From a virus, in the IMG/VR virus record IMGVR_UViG_3300038701_001349, positions 1 through 39,042 of that record: a stretch of 39,042 nt of DNA; one strand, given 5' to 3'. Numbering within the stretch: the stretch's first letter is position 1; each line of letters opens with the position of its first letter. The translations under genes were made by a program, and so were the position numbers. A model generated the notes under the pieces. The model had not been told where the DNA came from. It saw only the letters and a program-made list of their open reading frames with translations, and searched no databases. This document shows, in pieces, positions 11,283-12,386 of the stretch.

Positions 11283-11382
11283 AACCGACGTGATGTTATC
11301 TGAGCGTTCATGCTGTGAGGATATAGCGGTCAGCATCGCGGCATGTTTGGTTATTCTTGGATTAATAATCGTATTGTTATGA
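11236..11382 (+). CDS. Short membrane protein, 48 aa
   Basis: A basic N-terminus (MERKVNWIKKKIQSFK) leads to a hydrophobic C-terminal segment (about residues 29-48, DIAVSIAACLVILGLIIVLL). Its TGA overlaps the methyltransferase ATG (ATGA). It could be a tail-anchored inner-membrane peptide. No family recognised. Confidence 0.5.
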   Translation: MERKVNWIKKKIQSFKTDVMLSERSCCEDIAVSIAACLVILGLIIVLL

Positions 11383-12386
11383 GGGTATTGGATTTATTTT
11401 CTGGTATTGGCGGGTTTAGTTTAGGACTTGAACGTGCTGGATTTAAAACAGTGGCATTTTGTGAGATTGAACCTTATTGCCAGAAAGTTTTAAAAAAACA
11501 TTGGCCTGATGTGCCGATCTATGACGACGTGAGGGAAGTTAATGAGGAAAGACTTAGATCAGATGGAATTACTGACATTGGAGTCATTACCGGAGGATTC
11601 CCCTGTCAAGATATCTCCGTTGCAGGAAAGCAAAAAGGTATCGAGGGAGAACGATCAGGATTATGGTCAGAGCTCCATAGAATTATTGACGACGTACAAC
11701 CTCAATACGCGATCTTGGAAAACGTCGCAGCACTCATTAGTGGCGACAGGGGACGATGGTTTGGACGAGTTCTTGGAGACCTGGCCGAGATCGGGTATGA
11801 CGCAGAATGGCATTGCATACCAGCTTCAGCCGTTGGCGCGCCTCACCAGAGAGATCGAGTCTGGATTATTAGCTACCCCAACAGCGACAGGGAATCAATT
11901 AGCGCCTTCAATGCAAAAACATCCGAGTTGCAGAGCTCTGTATCCAACACCATGTGCAAGCGAGGGAGGCAGAAACAAGAGTGCAAGCAAGAATGCAAAG
12001 ATTCGTCCGAGTTTAGGAATGATGGCAAAAAAAAATATGTGGCCGACACCAACAAGAGCAACGGCAGACAAAGAAGTGATAGGCAGCCAAAAGAACAACA
12101 ATCTTGTTGCATACGCGAAAATGTTTCCAACTCCGACCTCAACAGACTACAAGGGAGCTCCGACTTTAAAAGCAGTCCAGGAAAGAGCAAAACAATCATC
12201 ACGCGGAGTCAGATTGCCAGAGCATATAGCGAAAACGGAGGGGATAGAGGTTGGTGGGCAACTGAATCCGATATTTGTCGAGTGGCTAATGGGGTATCCC
12301 GAAGGGTGGACAGAATTAAGGGATTAGGAAACGCGGTAGTACCACAGATACCTGAAATCATCGGAAGGGCGATATTAAATGACTAG
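11379..12386 (+). CDS. C5-cytosine DNA methyltransferase
   Basis: A 335-aa enzyme that would methylate cytosine in DNA using S-adenosylmethionine, probably to shield phage DNA from restriction. Motif I is DLFSGIGGFS (5-14); motif IV is GGFPCQ with catalytic Cys76; motif VI is ENV (114-116); motif VIII is QRDRVW (157-162); motif X is GLGNAVVP (315-322). The target-recognition region between VIII and X is low-complexity and Ser/Lys/Arg-rich. The start is the ATG overlapping the previous stop; a longer reading from 11343 adds residues outside the family. No restriction partner is visible. A second open frame runs inside it at 11542-12327. Confidence 0.92.
   Translation: MRVLDLFSGIGGFSLGLERAGFKTVAFCEIEPYCQKVLKKHWPDVPIYDDVREVNEERLRSDGITDIGVITGGFPCQDISVAGKQKGIEGERSGLWSELHRIIDDVQPQYAILENVAALISGDRGRWFGRVLGDLAEIGYDAEWHCIPASAVGAPHQRDRVWIISYPNSDRESISAFNAKTSELQSSVSNTMCKRGRQKQECKQECKDSSEFRNDGKKKYVADTNKSNGRQRSDRQPKEQQSCCIRENVSNSDLNRLQGSSDFKSSPGKSKTIITRSQIARAYSENGGDRGWWATESDICRVANGVSRRVDRIKGLGNAVVPQIPEIIGRAILND
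11542..12327 (+). CDS. Overlapping-frame protein inside the methyltransferase gene, 261 aa
   Basis: A 786-nt open frame in the +1 phase lies wholly within the methyltransferase gene. It has a good ribosome-binding site (GAGG, 7 bases before ATG). The product is not random-looking: LESLPEDSPVKISPLQ, SWKTSQHSL, ETWPRSGMTQNGIAYQLQPL, repeated 'PTPT' blocks (WPTPTRATADKE, FPTPTSTDYKGAP) and GGQLNPIFVEWLMGYPEGW. I recognise these as a recurrent phage protein type, often annotated hypothetical or methylase-associated. Its conserved blocks coincide with methyltransferase motifs in the other phase. It is either a genuine overprinted gene or a conserved by-product of constraint on the enzyme. Confidence 0.55.
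   Translation: MRKDLDQMELLTLESLPEDSPVKISPLQESKKVSRENDQDYGQSSIELLTTYNLNTRSWKTSQHSLVATGDDGLDEFLETWPRSGMTQNGIAYQLQPLARLTREIESGLLATPTATGNQLAPSMQKHPSCRALYPTPCASEGGRNKSASKNAKIRPSLGMMAKKNMWPTPTRATADKEVIGSQKNNNLVAYAKMFPTPTSTDYKGAPTLKAVQERAKQSSRGVRLPEHIAKTEGIEVGGQLNPIFVEWLMGYPEGWTELRD

Follow-up and report, generated by a model that had tools for sequence, protein, structure and literature searches.

The window examined in this study is the entire 39,042-nt stretch of IMG/VR virus record IMGVR_UViG_3300038701_001349. A gene encoding a C5-cytosine methyltransferase (MT) is preceded in the window by genes for an integrase, an Erf-like annealing protein, a primosomal protein, and a NinG/Rap endonuclease and is followed by a terminase gene. 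Judged from this integrase-to-terminase gene content, the window is predicted to belong to a temperate tailed phage.

The MT ORF (frame 0) is located at 11343-12386 on the plus strand and was assigned as the catalytic chain (alpha) from its matches to PF00145 (E value, 5e-55) and phrog_363 (E value, 4e-89) and from its alignment to M.HhaI across residues 13-181. Homologues of MT align from residue 13, and ATG 11379 is therefore an alternative start. The chain contains motif I (DLFSGIGGFSLGLE; 11391-11432), motif IV with the catalytic PCQ (GGFPCQDISVAGK; 11592-11630), motif VI (ENV; 11718-11735), and motif VIII (QRDRVWI; 11847-11867), the last three of which were also supported by the M.HhaI alignment. 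Motif X (GLGNAVVPQIPEI; 12321-12362) was assigned from sequence and coincides with a C-terminal helix predicted with high pLDDT. An earlier sequence-only reading of the window had regarded this frame as authentic, with motifs VIII and X intact, and the profile matches and the presence of both motifs confirmed this. MT meets the C5-MTase criteria of a PF00145 domain and motifs I, IV (PCQ), VI (ENV), and VIII (QxRxR), but it fails the criterion that motif IX and the target-recognition domain (TRD) be present in one chain: motif X is found and motif IX is absent. The segment from motif VIII to motif X (11869-12258) was near-neutral in close pairs by dN/dS and was predicted by AlphaFold to be disordered.

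A second ORF lies entirely within the MT ORF, in the +1 frame relative to MT. As the sequence-only reading had claimed, it spans 786 nt (11542-12327, plus strand), from ATG 11542 to a stop codon ending at 12327, and encodes a protein of 261 aa, which we propose to be a specificity chain (beta). The +1 protein is a member of phrog_1008 by HMM match (E value, 1.3e-31), and no match to it was found among the Pfam and NCBIfam models. The phrog_1008 family (329 aa) is annotated only as a DNA methyltransferase, without mention of an overlap. The +1 chain consists of an N-terminal domain (SPVKISPLQ ... SWKTSQHSL ... ETWPRSGMTQNGIAYQL; 11599-11826), which overlaps MT motifs IV-VIII, four recognition-like modules at 11872-11943 (ATPTATGNQLAPSMQKHPSCRALY), 11944-12042 (PTPCASEGGRNKSASKNAKIRPSLGMMAKKNMW), 12043-12126 (PTPTRATADKEVIGSQKNNNLVAYAKMF), and 12127-12261 (PTPTSTDYKGAPTLKAVQERAKQSSRGVRLPEHIAKTEGIEVGGQ), and a motif IX-like block at 12262-12309 (LNPIFVEWLMGYPEGW), all encoded on the plus strand. 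This last block, a motif absent from MT, was assigned from selection and from the equivalent block in the MT frame of a Megaera plasmid (locus L186), which aligns with M.HhaI. The protein blocks quoted in the sequence-only reading, and their register with the MT motifs, were correct on re-examination: ETWPRSGMTQNGIAYQL (nt 11776-11826) lies beneath MT DLAEIGYDAEWHCIPAS, WPTPT (12039-12054) beneath VADTN, and FVEWLMGYPEGW (12274-12314) beneath CRVANGVSRRVDR.

Two explanations had been offered for this frame: it could be a true overprinted gene with a ribosome-binding site of its own, or the family in databases could be merely a methyltransferase shadow. Two null sets of 5000 sequences each, all synonymous for MT, were generated, one by recoding MT according to codon usage and the other by permuting its codons. 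The longest +1 open run was 264 codons, compared with a mean of 102 and a maximum of 215 under the codon-usage null and a mean of 101 and a maximum of 257 under the codon-permutation null; it was thus unmatched in 10,000 simulations. When the window was scored against an HMM of the +1 family from whose construction it had been left out, the real sequence reached 274.5 bits, 13 SD above the 94 ± 14 bits (maximum, 148) of the synonymous permutations. About a third of the apparent +1 conservation is hence a true shadow of MT, and the remainder is not.

Relatives of the locus were collected in first sets of 183 loci and then 92 more. To avoid circularity, 80 IMG/VR loci were retrieved by the MT protein alone, and the 78 with recognizable motifs were used to count stops. 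Between motif IV and motif X, no +1 stops were observed where 375 were expected, in agreement with the suggestion of the sequence-only reading that a real gene would have fewer stops than simulated sequences. The +2 control frame of the same 78 loci contained 869 stops against 851 expected, and the null is calibrated because of this match. The +1 family was present in every locus of three sets: the 80 fetched with MT, 80 retrieved by the +1 protein, and 14 from GTDB genomes. Its frame relation to MT was always +1 in those loci; in the actinobacterial locus L180 the part containing motif IX has moved into the MT frame. The counts are not all independent, as the IMG/VR loci include near-duplicates.

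A putative Shine-Dalgarno (SD)-like site, GAGGGAAG, was identified from the sequence at 11531-11538 on the plus strand, 4-11 nt 5' of ATG 11542, so that its end lies three bases before the start codon. The +1 frame of the window opens just 5' of this ATG. Of 158 relatives, 94% had a +1-frame ATG close to the position of the conserved start, compared with 41% in recodings, and 61%, compared with 11%, had an ATG together with an SD-like site.

Selection was analyzed in 64 disjoint pairs of relatives by classing each change as synonymous or nonsynonymous in both frames. These are simple single-change counts without multiple-hit correction, and the contrast between segments and frames, rather than the absolute values, is taken as evidence. 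MT third positions, which are second positions of +1 codons, showed 0.19 changes per site in the overlap versus 0.33 upstream. In the same comparison, dNN/dNS was 0.47 versus 0.80 and dSN/dSS was 0.33 versus 0.64. Both frames are thus under purifying selection, as a count of substitutions per frame, proposed in the sequence-only reading, was meant to establish. Segment-wise dN/dS was determined for 23 pairs with MT identity of at least 80%. Across motifs IV-VIII, values were 0.10-0.13 for MT and 0.28-0.36 for +1; between motifs VIII and IX they were 0.55-0.84 for MT and 0.12-0.18 for +1; and in the motif IX segment they were 0.13-0.18 for MT and 0.09-0.12 for +1. The +1 N-terminal domain had a dNN/dNS of 0.52 and a dSN/dSS of 0.31, and the strongest +1 selection was measured in the motif IX-like block (dNN/dNS, 0.16). 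The functional load shifts from frame 0 to +1 along the gene, with the recognition segment being conserved in +1 but almost unconstrained in frame 0.

These results demonstrate that the +1 frame at 11542-12327 is a real gene and not a shadow. The stop counts, dNN/dNS, dSN/dSS, and the enrichment of ATG with an SD-like site all support the first of the two explanations. The shadow hypothesis, in which the +1 family merely reflects conserved codons and composition of MT, was rejected by synonymous recoding, the control frame, and dN/dS; a shadow is measurable, as the 94 bits of the permuted sequences attest, but insufficient, and the +1 modules are conserved where MT is not. We regard it as practically ruled out.

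The sequence-only reading had also counted the lack of any homologue encoded without an overlapping MT as a point against a real gene, and here the outcome went against it: phages, plasmids, IMG/VR, and GTDB genomes were searched, and no standalone +1 homologue was found among the loci read. The six 8-aa search patterns favor relatives, so that rare standalone copies are not excluded. A +1 protein that served as a subunit of the MT enzyme, a role that the earlier reading did not propose, would be expected to show just such an absence.

The location of motifs IX and X was determined by pattern search in 268 loci with a recognized core, in which a few assignments are spurious (e.g., L029). Motif IX was located in the +1 chain in 255 of the 268 loci, in MT in five, in neither in eight, and in both in none. 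Motif X was located in MT in about 247 loci and in +1 in about 11. The latter comprise a mycobacteriophage type (L003 and L273-L279) and L004, in which the MT chain ends directly after motif VIII. In the mycobacteriophages (gp76/gp75; L003:1299-2394 and L273-L280), the modules are encoded in the +1 ORF together with motifs IX and X, and the locus is annotated as two DNA methylases; gp75 matches phrog_1008 with an E value of 7.6e-95. A further arrangement was found in the Megaera plasmid (L186), where the MT frame encodes the equivalent motif IX block immediately ahead of motif X, and PF00145 spans residues 3 to 322 of 324. This block aligns with M.HhaI KLHPRECARVMGYPDSY; the alignment is collinear, but the HMMER domain is weak alone (5.5 bits). 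The three motif arrangements complement one another, as would be the case for a single enzyme divided at different positions.

In one metagenomic contig (L282:1424-3649), a single ORF in the MT frame includes the distal modules, motif IX, and the beginning of motif X, and the +1 frame keeps the N-terminal domain and the first modules. This contig could represent a natural fusion, a pseudogene, or a sequencing frameshift, and its single-frame version was not used as proof because the frame breaks again downstream, after GNG.

Programmed ribosomal frameshifting could in principle join the two frames into one polypeptide with motifs I-VIII, the recognition modules, and motif IX. Such an explanation would fit some relatives, in which the open +1 frame extends upstream almost to the start of MT, as well as the single ORF of L282, although the second frame break of that contig may reflect a sequencing error or pseudogene. 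In most loci, motif X follows motif IX but is read in frame 0, which would require two shifts in opposite directions. In the window, moreover, the +1 frame opens only just before ATG 11542, which is preceded by an SD-like site, and starts of this kind are enriched among the relatives. Frameshifting is accordingly considered improbable, and separate translation of the +1 chain as a recognition part of the enzyme remains the preferred reading.

Members of the +1 family share the order SPxKTSxxQ ... SWKTSQxSL ... ETWPRSGMxxNGxxYQL, one to five modules, and LNPxWVEWLMGxPxGW. An alignment of eight distant +1 proteins was too diverse for pattern search. The modules begin with xTP and have a median length of 38 aa. 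The 477 modules in 183 proteins formed 128 clusters, 34 of which had at least four members; among these 34 clusters, several kinds of left neighbor were found in 30 and several ordinal positions in 29. The +1 proteins of L139 and L161 share 98% identity in their first 100 residues and have one module in common, and the rest differs. The +1 modules occupy exactly the positions of TRDs and are shuffled as TRDs are, a pattern of cassette exchange like that of the tandem-TRD methyltransferases of Bacillus phages.

A TRD in the multispecific C5-MTases of Bacillus phages measures approximately 40 aa. The C5-MTases of SPR, phi3T, SPbeta, and H2 are multispecific with tandem TRDs (cited in PMC8936443). 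The window resembles them in arrangement, with tandem exchangeable modules between motifs VIII and IX, and differs in that their TRDs share one frame and one polypeptide with the catalytic motifs, whereas the window modules are in +1.

M.EcoHK31I offers another parallel in motif distribution; its beta chain, too, is read from a frame that overlaps within the alpha gene. This enzyme (YGGCCR) has motifs I-VIII and X in the large polypeptide and motif IX in the second, and its TRD has been assigned to the large subunit (PMC3404938). The window shares with it a large chain with motifs I-VIII and X and a second chain with motif IX. However, only motif IX is contributed by the small chain of M.EcoHK31I and the TRD by the large one, whereas selection and the modules place recognition in the +1 chain of the window. 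M.EcoHK31I also belongs to an R-M system, whereas no restriction gene was recognized among the neighboring window genes that were scanned. M.AquI has motifs I-VIII in one chain and IX-X in the other (PMC3404938), a split that resembles the mycobacteriophage arrangement; it differs in lying within the variable region and in not being reported there as nested overlapping genes.

Overlap as such is already known in places. C5-MTase ORFs that overlap completely have been described for Streptococcus phages 5093/0092-0095, pneumococcal phages, and Tn5252 (PMC5601072), and both overlapping ORFs are annotated in pneumococcal phage MM1 (ORF13/ORF14). In our literature search, no paper directly on the +1 family was found, only the reports of overlap in streptococcal phages; we found no description of a phage-wide class, of evidence for dual-frame selection, or of a modular recognition array in an overprinted frame.

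The streptococcal-type loci (L184:6218-6643 of Streptococcus phage 5093, L188-L267, and L270:1501-1926 of MM1) contain a +1 ORF of approximately 140 aa (phrog_16143) over motifs IV-VIII. They resemble the window in this selected +1 ORF across motifs IV-VIII and differ in that the ORF is short, without modules or motif IX, and that the TRD and motifs IX and X are all present in their MT, which is thus a complete canonical enzyme. In 78 such loci, no +1 stops were observed over motifs IV-VIII against 483 expected, compared with 868 observed and 716 expected after motif VIII; dSN/dSS was 0.31 and 0.94 in the two segments, indicating purifying selection on the first. The ORF scored 35.8 bits against the HMM of the +1 family, which is not clearly above its shadow (21 ± 7; maximum, 45.7), and the phrog_16143 HMM gave no match to the +1 protein of the window. 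Matches to the streptococcal ORF in Coprococcus, Bacillus, Caulobacter, and Staphylococcus phages (L268-L272) were located +1 of the annotated CDS in every case in which coordinates were checked; the overlap is therefore not limited to streptococci. A Streptococcus suis plasmid (L185:1450-3528) carries two adjacent dcm genes overlapping by approximately 20 nt, and a +1 ORF in the first has a weak match to the +1-family HMM.

The streptococcal +1 ORF is not explained by a missing TRD. It may share a role that is still unknown with the N-terminal domain of the window's +1 chain, and this N-terminal part may, given the streptococcal type, serve something other than target recognition. Selection on a +1 ORF despite a complete MT is the main reason for which confidence in a specificity chain was held back. 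It is compatible with an overprinted gene that is genuine but encodes an independent protein, such as a regulator or an anti-restriction protein, and not a recognition subunit.

Also in favor of that possibility, the +1 protein alone has no sequence match to any solved structure (the family profile found none among PDB sequences). Its AlphaFold model was poor (pLDDT, 58; pTM, 0.28) and thus provides no fold evidence, being uninformative either way; equally uninformative was a comparison by hhalign with canonical C5-MTases, limited to a narrow set, in which motif IX was not recovered. AlphaFold prediction of MT with 64 relatives gave a confident catalytic core (residues 14-180, mostly >80), pLDDT mostly <50 at about residues 184-317, and a confident motif X helix. 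An independent protein would leave an MT of the window type without motif IX and with an unconstrained segment from VIII to X. It would also not account for a +1 chain that holds motif IX at the right place, in a block that shifts into the MT frame in other relatives, or for modules at TRD positions that shuffle like TRDs. An independent function is therefore regarded as unlikely, although less so than frameshifting.

Taken together, we consider it probable that one C5-MTase is made as two chains from the same DNA and that the +1 chain is its detached target-recognition part; no experiment or co-folding supports this as yet. Frame 0 would yield a catalytic chain with AdoMet binding, the PCQ nucleophile, and motifs VI, VIII, and X. 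The internal start at ATG 11542 would yield the +1 chain, with its N-terminal domain, four exchangeable modules, and motif IX, corresponding to the small target-recognition domain of a C5-MTase. The two chains would then assemble, complex formation being inferred and translation not having been shown. By inference, the +1 chain would select DNA sites and the frame-0 chain would methylate them. This methylation would probably shield phage DNA from host restriction, and self-methylation against restriction is inferred to be the likely use of the enzyme.

Beyond the window, we lean, by a small degree only, toward a large phage-wide class in which a catalytic chain and a swappable, multi-target specificity chain are encoded in two frames of the same DNA. 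One cassette exchange would alter the set of targets, with the other frame acting merely as a linker that tolerates the change, and most copies would be annotated with one gene only. Among dsDNA phages, the locus stands out as an unusually clear natural example of selection acting on two frames over a long stretch, here 786 nt. If the two-chain reading is true, hundreds of phage MTases annotated as single chains lack their recognition half, which is unannotated in the overlapping frame, and studies that express a single ORF would fail or give misleading results. It should then be possible to predict from the number and identity of the +1 modules how many motifs are methylated and which ones.
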